Shown piece by piece: positions 44,905-58,695 of a DNA stretch of 64,000 bases. Location: contig LLEY01000058.1 in assembly GCA_001414485.1 (NCBI GenBank), positions 62,001-126,000 of the forward strand. The letters run 5' to 3'. Each line of letters starts with the position of its first letter. The stretch's first letter is position 1. The notes under the pieces were generated by a model that saw only the letters and a list, made by a program, of their open reading frames with translations, ran no database searches and was not told the DNA's origin. Origin of the DNA: Calycina herbarum. Taxonomy: Eukaryota > Ascomycota > Leotiomycetes > Helotiales > Pezizellaceae. A program made the translations under genes and the position numbers.

Positions 44905-46781
44905 ACGTGGTTTATCAGGACCTGGCGCATATCAGGACCTGGCGCATATCAGGACCTGGCGCACTTTTCCTTAGCATTCAACTTTAAATATTAATAAATT
45001 AACTACAACATATTAAATTAACTATAACTACTTAGAATCCGAAGAATCAGACATATCTACATCTATTTGACAAGTTCGTATATTATAACCAGCTTTTCTA
45101 CAAGTGCCACAACGCCGTCTAGACGATTGCCCCTCCTTCTTATTACCCCCCTCCACACGTAAGTCGCGTCGTACTTGCTCGTTAACGTCCTTTTGAGTTA
45201 AAAGATCTTGGACATCCTCTACTATAAGTGCCCCCCCTTGACATACACGAGTCTTTTTAGCTCTACAGCGTTTGCTTAAGGCTTCATTCGCTACTCGAAG
45301 GGTACGTACTTCAGTAGACAACAAGGTCATCTCATAAGCTATTCGCTCTATACCTTTTGCTAATGCAGCAACTGTCTTAAATAGTAGAGTCGGCGAGCTC
45401 CCCTGGTGACAGGCAATCCGTTTCTAAACAAGAGTCGATTATAAGAGCGCTTTAGTAGGGTTTAAGGGAGTCTAGGAGATCTAAGTATTAGAATTAGCAG
45501 TAGAGGGTCTTAGGAGAGTTAGAGTCCGTAACCTTACGTCAAGCTTTAAAAGTACTACTTACAGGTCAAAAGGCACTAGGCCAGCTCTACAGAATCCAGC
45601 TTAAGCGTTCTAAACCGTTATTAATTCTTTATATACTACTATAAAAGCTAAAAAGAACTCTACCTTTGTAATATAGTTGATATAAGCTTTAATAAACGTC
45701 TCAATCTACCGACTATACGCCCGCTTTAATATACTAAAGCACCTAACATCAAGTGGTTAGGTTATATAGGATAAGTGAGGAGGTAGTCTAAGAGTTATAA
45801 TGTTGTATGCTTTATAATACTCTTGAAATTCAGCCGATTCATAACTCTTATACCTATCTAACACTAGCATTCGATATAGACCCTTTATACGACTAGTAGT
45901 ATATTTATCGAAGTGTTTTAGCTATTCTAGACCTATCTCGTTATTTGTCTATCTATTACTTATCAGTTTAATAACCCAGTTATATAGGAGGCCGCTGTCT
46001 ATATACTAATTTATAAGATGATTCTTCCCTTAGACGACCAAAAATAGAGGGATATCCTAACCCTTGCTATTAATATAAGCAATTGCTATAGCCTATTCCC
46101 GATTGCCTAGCTAAACTGCCTTACCTCTGCCACATCGATCTACATATATAACAACTATTGTAAGGCAAATTATACCTATTATAAAGCCTATTTCGTCGAA
46201 GTTATAGAAATCGTAATCTAAAACGCTGTATTTCGCTCTTATATTTTATATAAGTCGGAACCACGTACTAATTAGGTTAGGATCTTCGCATAAGGCTCTT
46301 TAGAAGTCGTAAACGCAATTAAAACGCGTCTTTAACCCTGGTTATCGTTATATAAATCGATATGCCTAAAGCTTACTAACGTGTTTCCCTCCCCGCGATT
46401 CGAGGATATAATTTGCTATATCTTCTATACTAGCTAGCTAGGGTATAAACCCTCTAGAATCCAAGTTAAGTATATTCTAAAGAATCACTTCCTCCTCGAG
46501 TTAAGTTAATTTAATATTTGCTAGTCGTTGTTCTAGGAGGGGAAGTTAGCCGTTTATTCTACGGCGAAGGCTAGTTTCGAGGACTTTGTAGATTTTTACA
46601 GTAGCCCGACAACTAAGCTTTTTAGATGATCGGATAGCCTCGATAGCTAAGATGATTCGAGCTTCTTAAGTTTGAATTTCCATTAGTAGTTGTTAAGATA
46701 ACGCGTATTAAAATAATAAAGTAGAGAAGATGGGAAAAGTACGCCAGGTCCTGATATACGCCAGGTCCTGATAAACCACGT
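44905..46781 (-). mobile_element. pogo/Fot-type Tc1-mariner element
   Basis: 1877 bp flanked by TA (44903-44904 and 46782-46783). The ends read ACGTGGTTTATCAGGACCTG and its complement; the TATCAGGACCTGGCGCA unit is repeated three times at the left end and twice at the right. Length and target are those of fungal Fot1/pogo elements. The transposase lies on the minus strand and is broken (next entry). Confidence 0.9.
45028..46690 (-). pseudogene. pogo-type transposase remnant
   Basis: The minus strand near 46650-46400 reads LAIEAIRSSKKLSCRATVKI, YKVLETSLRRRING and LEEEVIL...ILNLDSRGFIP, the N-terminal psq/CENP-B-type helix-turn-helix of pogo transposases, with TAA/TAG codons where Gln and Trp are usual. 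The middle with the DDE triad is heavily decayed. The C-terminal 100 codons (45330-45028) are open and end in RRRCGTCRKAGYNIRTC, the Cys-rich tail found on many fungal pogo transposases. C-to-T type damage suggests RIP. Confidence 0.85.
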
Positions 46782-47337
46782 TAATTAGTAATATTACTAA
46801 TAATAAGCTTTATAAGCCTTATAAATACTACTTCGAAGAAAAGAGAGTTAAAAGAGAAGTAAGTAGCTCTCTATATATTAAGTTTCTATACTAATTAATA
46901 TATTAAGTTCTCTCTTTTAAGTTAGTAGAAAGTTAATAAGCTTAGCTATCTGGTTTTGTCTATATTAGCTTAGAAGTATCTATAAGTTCTAGCTACTTTA
47001 GCTTCTAGTAAAAGAGTCTTTAGTTAGAGAGCTAATATAGTTATAAAACAACGAAATAGGCTCTCTAAAGAGACTATAGAGGCTATAATTAGTCTAAAAA
47101 GCTAGGGTCTTTATCTAGAATAATAGACTAAAGAAGAAAGAAAGAAAGAAGAGAGAGAAGAAGGATAAAGATATAGACTTTGAGAATAACTATTTTATAC
47201 TTTAGTTATTTGTTTCTATTTATAGTATACTACGTAGAGTACTACTTAAGTAGTCATAAGTAACTACTCTACTCTACTCACACTACTCAGAGTACTACTT
47301 GAGTACCTGAGTATTCCTTGCTTACACTGCCTAAGAT

Positions 47338-50812: not shown

Positions 50813-51913
50813 TCACATAGTCTTGCCTTTGGTGGTGCTATCAAAATCTCTCGCAAACTGATCCCAGCCACCGGCAGGTGTATCCCACATCCCCAGATCT
50901 CTCAACACGAAATCATATGTTCCATCAGCAGGTAGTTTGCCCTGGCAAACATTACCTCCCATAGCAACATTGATGATAATCCGATAATCGCTCAACCTCC
51001 TTGTACCTTCAGGAATGTTGGCTTTCATGATCGGTCTACCATCAATATACCAAACCATCTTCCCACCCGCTCCATTGTGATCTCCATTTTGCTGCCAAGC
51101 AAATCCCATCGTAACCTCCCTCTGCGCCATATTGTGAATCGGTGTTTCCCAAACTCGATGTTTGTTCCAGTCCTCCCCGTTGAAATGACCCCAGTGTAGA
51201 CATGAATGGTTCACGCAATCCCCATTCCAACTCTCGAAAATATCCACCTCTCCATCGTTCGGCCATGTGAATGGTTGTGCTGGAAGGAGCCAAAAGGCAG
51301 GCCAAATTCCGGCAGCACAAGGAGCTCGCACCGTCGCAGATAGAAATCCACATGTGCGAGCTAACCTCTGCTCGGAAATCAGGCGCGCAGAAGTGTATTT
51401 ATCGTTTGGGGCTGACGTATTGACGATTCCACGCACGATCAACTGGGAGGGTCCGAAGAAGGCATTTTGGGGAGAGTTGGTGTAGTTTTGGGATTCGTTG
51501 TTACCCCATCCATGGGCTCCGGTTTCGTGCATGAAGTATGTTGAGATAGGGAGAGATGGGTCGAAATGTGGTTGCCAGTAGGGCTGCATTTGAGATTGAG
51601 GTCTGGTTGAGGAGGGAATCGGAGGTTGCGGGGATTGTGGTTTGCTCCAGGATGGGACTGGAGGAGGAGCTCCATGATATGATTGTTGCTGCTGAGGAGG
51701 AGGAGGGTTGTAGTATTGCTGCTGCTGTTGTTGAGGAGGATAGTAGGGCTGTTGAGCACCTGGGTACTGCTGCTGCTGCGGGGGTTGATTGTTGTAATAC
51801 TGCTGGTTCTGTTGTTGTTGCTGCGGTTGTTGGACAGTACGGCCATCTGTAAACTCCTTTAACTTGGCCTTGCCTTTGTTAAGGGCGCCTTCAAGATTAT
51901 GGAGGAATGACAT
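50813..51913 (-). CDS. GH16-family glucanase-like protein
   Basis: A single exon of 366 aa. Residues 1-115 are Gln/Pro/Tyr-rich (runs of five or six Gln). Residues ~120-355 are a GH16 beta-jelly-roll: SQLIVRGIVNTSAPNDKYTS, CAAGIWPAFWLLP, then the catalytic GEVDIFESWNG with the ExDxxE arrangement (Glu nucleophile and acid/base two turns apart), GFAWQQNG, MVWYIDGRPIMKA and IIINVAMGGNVCQG. Members hydrolyse or transglycosylate beta-1,3/1,4-glucans. No signal peptide is visible (start MSFLHNLEGALNKGKAKLK), which is odd for a wall-active enzyme. A GTGAGT overlapping the stop could be a donor to a further exon. Confidence 0.9.
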   Translation of the reverse strand: MSFLHNLEGALNKGKAKLKEFTDGRTVQQPQQQQQNQQYYNNQPPQQQQYPGAQQPYYPPQQQQQQYYNPPPPQQQQSYHGAPPPVPSWSKPQSPQPPIPSSTRPQSQMQPYWQPHFDPSLPISTYFMHETGAHGWGNNESQNYTNSPQNAFFGPSQLIVRGIVNTSAPNDKYTSARLISEQRLARTCGFLSATVRAPCAAGIWPAFWLLPAQPFTWPNDGEVDIFESWNGDCVNHSCLHWGHFNGEDWNKHRVWETPIHNMAQREVTMGFAWQQNGDHNGAGGKMVWYIDGRPIMKANIPEGTRRLSDYRIIINVAMGGNVCQGKLPADGTYDFVLRDLGMWDTPAGGWDQFARDFDSTTKGKTM

Positions 51914-52683
51914 GGCTCAATTGGTAATGAGTCTGGAAAGTTGTGGTGTCGTTGAACTTTTGTCTCAGACGATGATGACGCACTTGCGGGTACGAGGGTA
52001 CGAGTACACAGCCGGTGTTCCAACTTTATAGGGCAATTCAAGTAAATCACCCTAAGCGCTTTGAGACTATTAACCCAGATAGTTGAAAAAATCAGCTTCA
52101 ATAGTCCCAAACGATCTAGGTTAGCATTTTGGATTCTCCCAGAAAGTTGGTTATTTATTTACAATCGCCTTTGTCCACCGTGGGCCGGAATAATGTTCTT
52201 TCGGTTCCGAAAGTTCCCCGCTCTTGAAGCATTCCCGAGATCTTACAACACCATCTCCAACACAACACAAAACCGTATCCACATACTTCCGGCTACAGAA
52301 GTTTTAGATTCTCAAGAACACAATGGAGATTTTGCCCTCCAAACCTATCTGTCGTCAAGTCTGTTGATCTTAACCCCTTCTTTTGGACCACCCTTTTCCC
52401 CAACCAGAGTACTTCATGTTGCTGGGAAAATGCCTCTGTTCTCTGGGGAAATCTAGTAGAAATCCAAGAAACAGAGACATATGACTATCATATCTTTGCT
52501 TTGCAAAGAAAACAATGGCCACAAGGGGATTTCACTTTCAATATTTTGCGCAGTAGATGGTTTATTGATTTTATTGATTCTTCGCACTCTCACTCTCCCC
52601 CTCTACGCATCTATCCTCTCCGTCCTCTATACGTTTGATACTGTGCTAACCGCATACTCTATAGACTGCATTGATCTTCTAAA
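51914..52683. other. Intergenic
   Basis: Promoter of the GH16 gene and 3' flank of the RiPP precursor gene. Short plus-strand frames have no recognisable similarity. Confidence 0.35.
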
Positions 52684-53358
52684 TCAAATGTAACTAGCCT
52701 TCCAGGCCAAGTCAACGTTCTCAGCATCCTCGGCAGGGGCAGCCTCACGCTTGATGTACGAAGCCTTCCAGGCGTTGTCAATATCCTCGCTACGTTTGAT
52801 ATAACTGGCTTTCCAGGCATTGTCAATGTCCTCGTTGCGCTTGATATCTACAAAATCTCGAAGTTAGTATAGATTTCTAGGGACCTGAGTGGGAACTCAC
52901 AGCTGGCCTTCCATGCGTTGTCAATATCCTCGCTACGCTTAATATATGATGCCTTCCATGCCAAATCGATATCCTCGCTACGCTTAATATCTACAAAATA
53001 CCGCAATCAGTATACTTTTCTAGAAATAGAATGAGAGGGGACTAACAGCTGGCCTTCCAAGCGTTGTCGATATCCTCGCTACGCTTGATATATGAGGCTT
53101 TCCATGCCAAATCGACACTCTCAGCATCCTCGGCCGGGGCACGAGCTTCAATTTCTGTTTGCGTCTGTCAGTCTGTACTTCTTTTGACAATTGCCAGATT
53201 GCAAGATGGATTTCTTACCAGCTGCAGCTGGGAATGCTGGCCCGGCTAACTAAATGTTAGAAACATGCTTACCAAGGCGAATTTTCGAGCTTACCTGTTG
53301 GGAAGGCAAGAACTGCCATCACCTGGGCGACCGTAAGAAGAAGAATGCTGGCTCTCAT
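52684..53358 (-). CDS. Secreted RiPP precursor with seven WKASYI cores (dikaritin-like)
   Basis: Five exons in minus order: 53358-53295, 53245-53219, 53154-53047, 52990-52901, 52847-52684, joining in frame to 150 aa. Residues 1-18 form a signal peptide (MRASILLLTVAQVMAVLA). After a short Ala/Pro spacer come seven repeats with consensus SEDIDNAWKASYIKR; the first and last have longer acidic leaders (AEDAESVDLA, AEDAENVDLA) and the last core ends at the stop codon. Each internal copy ends in Lys-Arg, the Kex2 site. This is the build of fungal dikaritin precursors (UstA type): secretory entry, multiple identical cores, KR cleavage, then oxidative cyclisation by UstYa proteins, two of which are encoded nearby. 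Core WKASYI holds the Tyr and Ile typical of Tyr-aliphatic ether links. A mating-pheromone precursor is the main alternative, but the core does not look like a fungal alpha-pheromone. Confidence 0.88.
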
Positions 53359-54516
53359 CTTGAATTTGGATTGGGATTGTTGGAAGTGGGTTTGGAAAGT
53401 CGGAGAAGAAGTGAATGGAATGCTGATGATATTTCCAGGTTGCGCCAGACGCTGGTTTATATACAACAATTTCTCGTGGACGAAACTTCAGGGTAGAGAT
53501 TTCATGGTTTCTACCTTCGACTGTCAGTCCTGTGAAGCCTAGAGCGGTCAGCACGATCATCGTCTTCCACATTGTTTTTTCTCTACCTCGTTTGAATGCG
53601 CCATGCAATCACCTCAAGGCACAAGGTGTCGTTCAGGGGATGTGTGAGAATGGAACATGGGGTCCCACAACACATTTGCTTGGCTCGTATTTCAATGATC
53701 TGGGTCATTTTAGACAAACTTGTACTTTTTCAGTTAGTTTGTACAGCATTTTGATGCGTTTATTTCCTTTATTGCGTGCTATGTTTTTGATGCTTGCATC
53801 TACTGTCTTCCTATTCGTCAAACACCGAGCTGGTGCCAAGCAGTAATGCTCACTGTGTCACTTAGCCAAAAACGGAAAGCTACGAGAAGTCCCAGAACTC
53901 CGATGGATTGTGGAGAATTCAAAGGCACCTTCCAAAAGCCGGAGAGTCCGAGAATTGTAGCTATCAGTTTCATCCTACACATTACTTTGCTTGGGATGAA
54001 GTTAGCTTGTTCTTTAGCTCACGGCGAGGTTATTTTTGTGGGACACGTCGCTTATGACCACTTTGAGCTTCGTAGTAAAGTCTCTGCTGGGGTGGGCGTA
54101 ATTTTTACGTAGCTCTGTAAATTGGTTCATGCTTAAACTATACTTTCAATTTTAATGCCGCTCTAGTGTTTTGCTTTGGTCACGAGGATTTTTGAATGAA
54201 GTTTAGAAAGAAAGTTTTGATTTCGTTTTGAAATAATAAGATACCCTGCAATTACTCTCCGGTACCCTTTTATCTTATTGTGTGACTATTCTCGTACAAT
54301 GCTAAACATTATTCTAGAAGATTTCGGAGAATAAAGAAACCAACTTTCTAATTCTTCTAAACCTCTTCGGACAATAAGTATGATTGTTCTAGACTGTTTT
54401 AAACAATTTAAAATACATTAGGTCGTGGAGAGTAATGCCCACTTCTCTTACAAGTTTATGAAGAAGAGTCAAACTGATGTTAAAAAACAAGCCTATCAAA
54501 GTCCCCCAATACATCC
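53359..54516. other. Promoter region of the precursor gene
   Basis: No supportable gene. It separates the precursor from the UstYa-type gene, both on the minus strand, so it contains the precursor promoter and the 3' flank of the oxidase gene. 54120-54420 is AT-rich. Confidence 0.4.
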
Positions 54517-55242
54517 TCAACAATTCCCAAATCCCACATTCCCAGAGGTTGTGATCTTGTCATCATTTTTGCCCCTCGCCAACTTTACCAAATACATCAA
54601 ACAATGTTTCGAATGAGCATATTTGCGAACCAACATATCTCCCCTTCCATCTCCCCGTTCCATCGCACGATGTACGCGTAGCATCATAAACGCACAATGC
54701 GTAATGTGCTCCCGCTGGGTCGTCCAATACGTTCCATTTTTCCCAATGTGAGCCATTTCATGAGGTGTCTTGATTTCCTTTGTTCCTTCTTTGTCTAGCC
54801 AGTATTTCCATTTTGTGTCATTCCCTTGGAAACCGACGAATTCATCGGTGCCGTCGCGTGGGCATCCTGGGGGGAGCCAGGCTACACTCAGAGGGTCGAA
54901 TTCGCAGCCCAAGGCTTTTGCTTCCTCGAGTGAGTTTCCACAGTTTGGTCTTTCCGAATCTGGAATTGAGCTGGGTGTTATCGGTACTGGTGATGGTATT
55001 AAATTGGTGTTGGCTACTGGGTGTGGTGGCGAATAAGATGATTCAATTCGTGTTGAAAAATATCCATGCGGAGACAAAGTTGTCATGACTGCAATTGTGA
55101 AGGAACTCGAGAGTACGGCTGCTGCAATGGCGGTTGCTAGGAGGGCTTTCCATGGTCGTTTGATCTCTTTATCTACTAAGCCTGTTCGTGATGAAGATCT
55201 TGACTCTTCCTCGACTTTGGCGTAATTGTGTTTTGGTGCCAT
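54517..55242 (-). CDS. UstYa-type (DUF3328) oxidase, divergent form
   Basis: One exon, 241 aa from MAPKHNYAKVEEE; an upstream in-frame ATG at 55359 would add 39 residues that look like leader sequence. A single membrane segment lies at residues ~31-54 (WKALLATAIAAAVLSSSFTI). The lumenal domain has a Cys-containing region (CGNSLEEAKALGCEFDPLS, WLPPGCPRD) and two copies of the H-x-x-H-C signature: HITHC at ~179-183 and HSKHC at ~210-214, the spacing of paired metal-binding motifs in UstYa proteins. UstYa enzymes oxidatively cyclise RiPP cores in fungi. The CGxS...EAxxLGCxFD region is the variant form found in many fungal DUF3328-like proteins. Its location next to the precursor on the same strand supports a tailoring role. 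Confidence 0.82.
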   Translation of the reverse strand: MAPKHNYAKVEEESRSSSRTGLVDKEIKRPWKALLATAIAAAVLSSSFTIAVMTTLSPHGYFSTRIESSYSPPHPVANTNLIPSPVPITPSSIPDSERPNCGNSLEEAKALGCEFDPLSVAWLPPGCPRDGTDEFVGFQGNDTKWKYWLDKEGTKEIKTPHEMAHIGKNGTYWTTQREHITHCAFMMLRVHRAMERGDGRGDMLVRKYAHSKHCLMYLVKLARGKNDDKITTSGNVGFGNC

Positions 55243-56794
55243 TTCTATGATCGTCAATATTTTTCTGGTTGAAATATGTGCAGGGCTCGTACTGAGAGTT
55301 TTGAAGTGGGGATTAAAGTGAAACTTGAACTTGCTCAATAACTGAACAGGAGTTTGCAATGTCGTGAAAGTTTACAATGAATGTTTGGTTACCTTTCCTG
55401 GAGGCCCTCTAGAGCTGATTGTGAGAATAAGCGGGTCTCTGGTAGCTGGTCACTATTTACAGTCCGTTTACGATTTGTAACTAGTTTTACGAACTGTTCG
55501 ATTAGGGATTGTCTTTTCCATGGCATCCTTGTTGACTTCATGGCGCTTTTCCAAGAAGAAAGGGCACGGTGGAATCCTCGTGCTTATTCCTTCGTCCGTT
55601 TCCTAGTTCGTGCGAACGGTTCATGCACGGTTCATGCGAAGCTTTCCGGTGGCCATTCCCAGAGGGCCAAGACCCCAGGTTCTTACTTTCCGGTGGTTGC
55701 GGCGGCGCAAAACTACGCCGCAACCCTTAGTTCAGCGGCACATTTGATGGTTTAGCGCTTACATTTCATGCTCTGTTGTTCTTTGGATTGTGATCGAGTG
55801 GCTAGAATTGTTTGCATTCTTTTTACGGACGTTCCGAAATTTCTACGGCGTCGCTGAAATTTGGAAGTCGTCCTAGGAAATTCATCAGGCAGCCACTTAT
55901 GATCTTGGATGAATCATTATGAGGCCAAGTGATTGAAAGGATTGTAAGCGCGAAGATTTGCTTTGATACAGCTTGTATCTCACCGCTGTGTGGTCGTCAT
56001 CTTCTCATGCAGTGTCATTGCAAGGTTACTTTTCGAGTGGCAAAGCTTATTATTCGATTTAGATCTCATTTTGTTCATACAGCTTAGGAATTTGCTTGTT
56101 AGAATCAATAAATTTCAGTGGAAAAGCAATGTAATGTAGTGTCATTGCTAGCAAGCCTTTCCACAAGTTTGCCGGTGATGAATCTCCCGCAATCGAGGAG
56201 ATGGAGGCTGAGATACGAGATCCATTTAAGCTTGTTTTGACTGCGCGTCTACCCATTTCACGTATTACAGGGTCCCCGCGTTTCCACGTTCGGTTCCTGT
56301 TTTGCTCCAAGGCGCTGGAACCAAAATTATATGCAATGTCTTGATTGGATGGGATAATTGGTTTTACTTCTAAGCGCAAGAGCACAATGACAACGAAGTT
56401 TGGAATGCACATTATATGCTTGTCTCCCAAGGTACTTGGCGTACCCTGTGTAGTTAACAGACTAGTTCTTTACAAGTAATCAGCTCGTAACGCACCTACC
56501 ACGTTTTCCGGAGATTTTCAAATTCCCCAGATCCTCCGTCCACACTCCACCCTGGATCCCGCACTAGATTCAGTTGAGGTTATCTTTGTACCCCATCTAC
56601 CGGCCGTGGATCTCACCCATTCGTAGATGGCTAACTCGATGTGGCACCCATGGGGTCAGATTCAGCCTCATGCATACTCGTAGCTCGTATAACATGTAAC
56701 CTTTGTGATCCTTCGCCTCGTTGTTTAGCTGCAGCAGTACATTTAGTGGATCACGACAGTTCATAAGCTCGCTTCTTATCTAATTTCTTACTCC
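55243..56794. other. Intergenic between the two UstYa-type genes
   Basis: No supportable gene. Contains the UstYa-type promoter (55243-55400) and mixed sequence with short frames on both strands without similarity. A gene for a further tailoring enzyme (tyrosinase, methyltransferase or transporter) is not present here. Confidence 0.4.
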
Positions 56795-57011
56795 CCCTCC
56801 CCCACCTAATTACATTGTAATGACCCACTTTGCAGATCTGGGGGTGCCTGTGTAAAGTCCTGGTAATGTCAGGGTGTTTGGCCATCTTTATCATTCTATT
56901 TTTTAATTTCAAATTTCAACTCTTCTTAATGGCTCGGCGCTTTGACATTACACAAGACCCACAAAGTGGGTCATTACAATGTAATTAGGGGGGGGGGGGG
57001 GGGGGGGGGGG
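56795..57011. mobile_element. Small MITE-like inverted repeat with a 24-base G run
   Basis: A perfect 28-bp inverted repeat starts at 56806 (CCTAATTACATTGTAATGAC...) and its complement ends at 56989. The right end runs into 24 consecutive G (56988-57011), while the left outer side is C-rich (CTCCCCCTCCCCCAC). The interior has no ORF. The target duplication could not be defined because of the homopolymer. Confidence 0.65.
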
Positions 57012-57560
57012 AGAGTACCAAGACTCTCTCAATCCCACCGGGAGGAAGCTTGGTATTTTCGTGGTGCCACCTTTCGGTCTACTAATACGCTGGGTTATTA
57101 CCGTGCTCTCGCTTAATTTTGTATCCCTTCACTTTCAGTTAACGACTTCACCGCTTGCTCGTATGCTTATGGTGGAGGTTGGGAGGGCGTCGTTCTTGGG
57201 GGAATGAGGTTTAGTTCACCTTCCTCTTGAGATCGACGTTTGGTGGCGCCGAATTTTACCCAGAGGTTGGTTTTTGAAGATGTGAAGGATTATATTTCGC
57301 CGTCACCGAGAAGTTTTGGTTTCTTGTTTCTCCGGGGTATGCGTTTTTGAATGCCCTCTTGGAGATAATGCTTGGATTGAGAATTGGCATCATGCGAGGA
57401 AGCTTAGTTTCAATATTTCGAAGTGGAGTTGTCAGACGGACTCGAATTAGAGTATTTTTTAGTACTCTTTCCTCTTTCCCAACTTTTTCTTCATTCTTGA
57501 ATCACTTTCTTCATTTTTCTCCTCATTCCCTCACTTCAGCACGTAAATCAATCATTCAAA
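57012..57560. promoter_or_regulatory. Promoter region of the second UstYa-type gene
   Basis: Between the MITE-like repeat and the start codon. The last 90 bases are pyrimidine-rich and end in CATTCAAAATGAG, a good fungal leader. No coding sequence recognised. Confidence 0.45.
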
Positions 57561-58695
57561 ATGAGTAAATCATATGAAGACGATTACGAAAGTTCGAGTT
57601 CCTCTCGCAACAGCGATTCAGCGGGTCTTCTGAACTCAGAAGATGTGAATAAAGAATTCCCACTAGTGGTGCCACGTAAGAGTTGGGTCACGCTTTCAAG
57701 AGTTCATCTTGCTGCCCTTTATGCTGTTCTGTTGGTGTTTACTCTTCAAGCTTTGAGAACTTGGGTTTCGAAACCGGTAGATATCTCTCTGGGTAATCTT
57801 TACAGTAAGTTTACATCCTTGCTTGATTGTTTAATCTTGAGTAAGGAGACTAATTATTTGGTAGCACCTGCGAAAGAAGTTATTGAATATGAAGAGAAAG
57901 AATTCACATGGAATTTTTGGGATAAAGGACAATATATGGGGTTCCCAACTGATGAGAAGGATAAGATGTGGTCTGATTTATACAATTGTATTTCCCCCTT
58001 CTCAGCACAAAGATATGCTCTTTCGCTAACTTTGGGCCAGTCGGGACATCCGGAATCTCAAACGAAGAAGCAGAGCACCTCCCATATCCAACAGTCCCAG
58101 TCCCAGATTCCGAAGATAAATCCCTGATTATGCTTGACGTGTGGCATCAATTGCATTGTCTGAATACTCTCAGGAGAATGATGTACCCAGAACGTTGGCC
58201 AAAGATTTGGACCAAACATGAAGATGGGAGAATCAATTATGATACAGTTGAAATGCTTCATATTGGTAAATCTTCCCTCCCTCCCTCCTTCATTCCTCAA
58301 CCCCTCTTGTTCATGTCTCTTCTCTTCTGAATGCCAAACTAACCTCTTCCAAAGACCACTGCATAGACCACATCCGCCAATCCCTCCAATGTTTCGGCGA
58401 TACCGCACCAACATCCTTCTTCTACCACCCAAAGAAGGGAAACAATCCTTCACCATGGGGAACACACATGTGCAAGAACTTCAATAACTTGAAAACCTGG
58501 TCTGTGGAGAGACAGATTGAGAAGTTCAGTATGCATGATAAATTAGGTACGGGGAAGAAACATGATGATTATGAGATTAAACCTAAGGGAAGTGGATATG
58601 GTGGGAGTTCGAAGGATGTCTTGGGGTTGAAGTTAGAGGATGTTACGGCTCCACCGCCCGCGGGAGGGGAGGGTGAGGTGAAGATACATATGTAG
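57561..58695 (+). CDS. UstYa-type (DUF3328) oxidase, canonical form
   Basis: Exons 57561-57804, 57865-57987, 58041-58265 and 58355-58695 join to 310 aa. All three introns have GTAAGT/GTATTT/GTAAAT donors and keep phase 1. A single membrane segment lies at residues ~44-67 (TLSRVHLAALYAVLLVFTLQ). Landmarks: FTWNFWDKGQYMGFPTDEKD, LYNFGTSGISNEEAEHLP, the first motif VWHQLHCLN (158-164) and the second DHCIDHIRQSLQCFGD (198-213), then WGTHMCKNFNNLKTW. These two motifs define UstYa proteins, which act on dikaritin precursors, probably with copper, in the secretory pathway. The last ~60 residues are a Gly/Lys-rich tail. Its position near the precursor suggests it cyclises the WKASYI cores. Confidence 0.92.

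Follow-up and report, generated by a model that had tools for sequence, protein, structure and literature searches.

A candidate minimal dikaritin-type cluster

A locus at positions 52684-58695 of the 64-kb window analysed here (the whole stretch C334:62001-126000, from a Calycina herbarum genome of 68.8 Mb in 379 contigs) probably constitutes, as judged from its gene content, a minimal cluster for a dikaritin-type ribosomally synthesized and post-translationally modified peptide (RiPP). It combines a Kex2-repeat precursor carrying seven WKASYI cores, a canonical UstYa protein and a divergent HxxHC protein, and the HxxHC pair is predicted to turn the core into a small cyclic peptide by cross-linking, of a class to which known fungal toxins belong. 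An earlier reading made from the letters alone (the sequence-only reading) had placed the locus at coordinates that agree with the gene models built in our analysis and had proposed the dikaritin type. This assignment is supported because a signal-peptide repeat precursor beside a DUF3328/UstYa gene is the published criterion (PMC9632046, PMC10512285; here and below, the cited papers are drawn on as excerpts), and from it we infer a cyclic or otherwise modified product. The original five-gene definition, which included tyrosinase, methyltransferase, transporter or peptidase genes, was later relaxed (PMC12048977), and the WKASYI locus falls outside the original definition and within the later one, under which a DUF3328 gene alone is required.

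The core appears to be undescribed. The strings WKASYI, KASYIKR, AWKASY and NAWKASYI were not found in a literature search of the main texts of open-licence papers (supplementary files lay outside its scope), in line with the sequence-only reading, which knew of no characterised product with this core. Dikaritin-type clusters with uncharacterised cores are already common, and the dikaritins reported by 2022 numbered five (PMC10512285). The less expected feature is that a divergent and a canonical oxidase recur as a pair beside a precursor, and it is the small gene set and the unusual core together with this pair that lift the locus above the routine.

The precursor and its apparently selected core

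Spliced translation of the precursor gene yields a product of 150 amino acids (aa) with a hydrophobic, signal-peptide-like N-terminus, called from hydropathy only, and seven identical WKASYI cores. The spliced model thus bears out the signal-peptide protein with seven KR-delimited cores that had been read from the sequence, with one refinement: KR directly follows six of the seven cores, the seventh is followed by the stop codon, and a single Arg, not KR, precedes the first. Our repeat scan, which looks for at least three near-identical words ahead of KR or RR on the same strand, picks out the precursor gene within the 64-kb window, whereas none of 20 base-shuffled windows gave any match. In cores 2 and 4 an intron splits the Tyr codon after its first base (52843-53059), and therefore scans of unspliced frames catch only part of the repeats; here the scan counted four of the seven. 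A possible second copy of the precursor in the genome was rejected, the sole match outside the gene reaching 12.8 bits (E 3.2).

Comparison of the codons between the copies revealed 79 synonymous and no nonsynonymous pairwise differences in AWKASYI (147 codon pairs), and 24 synonymous versus 33 nonsynonymous differences in the five-codon spacer (105 codon pairs); these figures are descriptive and carry no test, since the seven copies are not independent. Because the AWKASYI copies vary only synonymously, the peptide sequence of the core appears to be selected. A tandem array with a period of 143 bases occupies 52763-53115 and spans an intron. Because introns cut cores 2 and 4 and the 143-base period includes an intron, the precursor gene seems to have grown by duplication of a unit of two cores plus an intron.

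Two HxxHC proteins of two families

The plus-strand gene (57561-58695), 4 kb from the precursor gene, is over the Pfam UstYa (DUF3328, PF11807) curated cut-off of 25 bits, two of its exon frames scoring 45.2 and 44.3 bits. The sequence-only reading had called two UstYa-type oxidases within 6 kb. Paired HxxHC motifs are indeed present in both proteins and the plus-strand gene is canonical, but the minus-strand protein reaches no more than 12.1 bits (E 0.18) and belongs to a divergent family. A search of NCBIfam with four proteins gave one match only, at 14.4 bits against a cut-off of 50. We took the most hydrophobic 19-residue stretch of each oxidase-like protein as its predicted membrane anchor; it starts near residue 43 in the canonical protein, and in the divergent protein it covers residues 34-52, ahead of HxxHC(x)nHxxHC. 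Coordinates are collected in Table 1.

Table 1. Positions in the window of the three genes at the locus, the precursor cores and the HxxHC motifs
Feature	Position	Strand	Basis or remark
Precursor gene, 5 exons	53358-53295, 53245-53219, 53154-53047, 52990-52901, 52847-52684	-	Spliced translation, GT...AG introns
Seven WKASYI cores (range 52687-53104)	53104-53087, 53059-52986 (intron inside), 52958-52941, 52913-52843 (intron inside), 52815-52798, 52770-52753, 52704-52687	-	
Single-exon gene for the divergent HxxHC protein, 241 aa	55242-54517	-	Open frame and motifs
HITHC; HSKHC	54708-54694; 54615-54601	-	Divergent protein, 26 residues between motifs
Canonical UstYa (DUF3328) gene, 310 aa	57561-57804, 57865-57987, 58041-58265, 58355-58695 (exons)	+	Splicing, Pfam UstYa
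HQLHC; HIDHC	58145-58159; 58259-58265 joined to 58355-58362	+	Canonical protein, 33 residues between motifs

To place the minus-strand protein, we searched the genome with it and obtained 14 matches at seven contig loci; two further divergent members as queries returned the same seven contigs and none other. Pfam UstYa itself matches the genome 71 times, and at none of these 14 positions. In an alignment of the eight members that have a long single open frame, 15 columns are invariant, including four His, six Cys and one Trp, and so are both HxxHC motifs, which are separated by 22-31 residues; even the highest-scoring of the eight, at 19.2 bits, falls short of the Pfam UstYa cut-off. A profile comparison (hhalign) of this family with six canonical proteins brought both HxxHC motifs into register (probability 75, pairwise E 2.5e-5, 63 columns), and a common origin of the divergent family and canonical UstYa is likely, though not certain. 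Comparison with solved structures produced two weak matches for the divergent alignment, in its N-terminal part (E 0.054 and 0.62), and none for the canonical one. Our literature search brought up no paper that we recognised as describing a second HxxHC family; such proteins, UstYb among them, may sit under the UstYa name in annotated clusters.

The oxidase pair recurs beside repeat precursors

The 71 Pfam UstYa matches merge into 38 loci, and the 10 kb around them make up 1.16% of the genome. Five of the seven divergent-family loci lie at most 10 kb from a canonical UstYa gene (binomial 4e-9 under random placement). By repeat scanning, all five of these paired loci contain a Kex2-repeat precursor, each with a repeat of its own: WKASYI in the window, AYPVIEEDIVA on C329, an AYAYAP-type repeat on C146, DIESIR on C212 and ETAYPKEKVL at C180:26001-34000. 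Tyr occurs in four of the five repeats. The C180 precursor was absent from the first 16 kb and was found in an extra 8 kb that the pattern had prompted us to add, which made the search wider there than elsewhere. Two divergent loci have no canonical UstYa gene nearby, and there no repeat precursor was found in the 10 kb (C51) and 8 kb (C42) scanned. Among canonical-only stretches, one of six of 10 kb gave a scan match, which we dropped as a Lys/Arg-rich stretch (L028), and one of eight of about 3.4 kb, two of which adjoin each other on C250, held a precursor (C338, repeat ADEDLG). The scanned stretches are unequal in length and 14 canonical-only ones were covered, so these figures are counts and not rates.

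These counts bear on an alternative explanation, namely that WKASYI is a linear, secreted, Kex2-processed peptide (a signal, pheromone-like or an effector) and that the adjacent oxidases act on something else. Such a peptide would be in keeping with the published survey in which a DUF3328 gene lies near 1758 of 7878 Kex2-repeat precursors, leaving 6120 without one nearby (PMC7329392). However, a precursor was found at all five loci with both oxidase types versus none of nine other 10-kb stretches of the window's contig, and DUF3328 genes are almost entirely absent next to precursors annotated as pheromones (PMC7329392). We therefore regard the linear peptide as unlikely, and a dikaritin-type peptide as the preferred reading.

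The divergent family offers a search handle, as it is missed by the Pfam model and was near a precursor at every paired locus in this genome. If the pairing holds in other fungi, surveys based on DUF3328 only would overlook part of the oxidases and outline the clusters only in part.

Other arrangements of these genes were also seen. On C146, a tyrosinase match lies 2-3 kb from the pair; with it, the trio there has the look of a textbook cluster. At C51:88001-98000, three divergent matches lie close together on a contig without a Pfam UstYa match and with no precursor in the 10 kb, and at C46:152001-162000 a canonical UstYa match lies 4 kb from a tyrosinase match, again with no repeat precursor in the 10 kb.

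A proposed route to a cyclic peptide

From what is known of related families, the precursor would enter the secretory pathway and Kex2 would cut it after KR (the genome contains one proprotein-convertase P-domain match), and the KR tail would then be removed from the released core. The membrane-anchored HxxHC proteins would act in the lumen, as in known families, with copper bound at HxxHC by analogy with CctR (PMC12435403), and their predicted role is oxidative cross-linking of the core. At least one ring would pass through Tyr and most likely close on Trp or Lys, since Ile directly follows Tyr in WKASYI. In ustiloxins and phomopsin (YAIG, YVIG, YVIP), the link runs from Tyr to an Ile in the second position after it (PMC7329392); in epichloecyclins Ile comes first and Tyr is internal, and in victorin a terminal Phe is joined to Leu (PMC9233826). 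The predicted [M+H]+ of WKASYI is 767.4086 for the linear peptide, 765.3930 after loss of 2 H and 763.3773 after loss of 4 H; for AWKASYI the corresponding values are 838.4458, 836.4301 and 834.4145. With its three genes, its sharply defined core and these predicted masses, the tyrosinase-free candidate offers a tractable test of DUF3328-type action on a peptide.

More speculatively, the pair might act as a two-protein cyclase, in which a second HxxHC copper-oxidase family missed by Pfam UstYa partners canonical UstYa, perhaps as a heterodimer with shared copper sites, with the precursor encoded beside the pair. The WKASYI locus would then be the simplest form of this system and would give a Trp/Lys/Tyr-bridged product without a tyrosinase. 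We consider this extension possible but doubtful.

Several observations weigh against the cross-linked product. The divergent minus-strand protein remains below the Pfam UstYa cut-off, as described above, and the C212 repeat, DIESIR, is without Tyr, so that a Tyr ring is no general feature of such trios. The 800-base upstream regions of the three genes share two 8-mers, but 39 of 200 shuffles share as many, and no word of at least nine bases is common to them; co-regulation thus receives no support from promoter words, none of which is common to the three genes beyond chance. None of the 45 tyrosinase matches in the genome is on the window's contig, though ustiloxin and phomopsin need such an enzyme, and no methyltransferase, transporter or peptidase domain was seen in the stretches scanned around the locus (listed below); the sequence-only reading had likewise reported no visible tyrosinase, methyltransferase or transporter. 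The promoter and tyrosinase results also speak for the linear peptide. As far as tested, the cluster is either minimal within the regions scanned or its further enzymes are encoded elsewhere.

The HxxHC proteins could instead modify the core without cyclising it, hydroxylation and desaturation being two such reactions. The DUF3328 protein CctR hydroxylates its substrate (PMC12435403), and three UstYa homologues of phomopsin biosynthesis carry out desaturation as well as cyclisation (PMC10512285). Dikaritins of known product are nevertheless cyclic (PMC9233826, PMC10512285), and the Tyr and Trp side chains of the core would suit cross-linking, making ring-free modification quite improbable in our estimate.

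Comparison with known systems

The ustiloxin cluster resembles the WKASYI locus in its signal-peptide precursor, its Kex2-separated repeats and its two UstYa-type genes (PMC10512285), but its core is YAIG or YVIG, it needs a tyrosinase and it comprises 15 genes, whereas the locus has a WKASYI core, three genes and no tyrosinase on the contig; this comparison covers gene content and core. In the phomopsin cluster too, several DUF3328 genes accompany a Kex2-repeat precursor (PMC7329392); it differs in its YVIP core, its five DUF3328 genes and its tyrosinase. Asperipin-2a from Aspergillus flavus comes from a small cluster for which the excerpt reports no tyrosinase role (PMC12048977), and four genes are enough for its heterologous production (PMC10512285). 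It contains two Tyr-linked rings, and its cluster has one UstY-type gene plus accessory genes, unlike the locus, whose two HxxHC genes belong to different families and whose core carries Trp, Lys and Tyr.

Victorin from Cochliobolus victoriae and the epichloecyclins share with the locus repeat precursors and likely Kex2 processing, and their rings are linked through side chains (PMC9233826); the links are Phe-Leu in victorin and Ile-Tyr in the epichloecyclins, and the core sequences differ from WKASYI. The occurrence of several precursor plus DUF3328 clusters in one genome has a parallel in Venturia inaequalis, for which nine dikaritin clusters are listed (PMC9632046). As for the proteins, CctR, the cyclochlorotine hydroxylase of the DUF3328 family, has HxxHC(x)nHxxHC after one membrane anchor, like the proteins of the locus; it is dimeric and O2-dependent, holds two coppers per monomer and requires its HxxHC motif (PMC12435403). 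CctR differs in that it hydroxylates a non-ribosomal peptide, and copper binding has been demonstrated for CctR and is predicted for the locus proteins.

Neighbourhood of the locus

The domain scans covered all six frames of 38.4-48.2, 53.36-57.56 and 58.7-63.3 kb, and three long open reading frames (ORFs) between 48.2 and 53.4 kb. The six-frame scans returned two transposon domains over the cut-off (hAT and DDE_1) and three matches below theirs. The weak UstYa score of the divergent gene lies under the reporting limit of these scans, and therefore other divergent genes could be overlooked likewise.

About 21 kb of AT-rich DNA, with a G+C content of 0.21-0.35, form a block that adjoins the locus and extends from about 63 kb to about C334:146000; it perhaps consists of mutated repeats. 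This block, the transposon remnants at 45.7-47.1 kb and a miniature inverted-repeat transposable element (MITE)-like element between the two oxidase genes would fit a decaying remnant of a cluster whose product is no longer made. Such decay is highly improbable in our view: all three genes are open, with no stop, under plausible splicing, the core has no nonsynonymous change across its seven copies, and published dikaritin clusters may be without a tyrosinase (PMC12048977).

The MITE-like element occupies 56793-57001, has 47-base inverted arms (89%) and has matches on 14 other contigs. The transposon remnants extend over 44913-47102, with DDE_1 at about 45691-46053 on the minus strand and an hAT dimerisation domain at about 46908-47102 on the plus strand; 17-base repeats flank the DDE_1 match at 44913-44963 and, inverted, at 46740-46773. 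The ORF at 50816-51916 is just over the GH16 cut-off (24 versus 22 bits). The ORFs in the first 10 kb past the AT-rich block resemble what we take to be housekeeping genes. The gene content is that of a filamentous fungus, with genes for HET and Zn2Cys6 proteins inside the window and one for AA9 directly beyond its edge.

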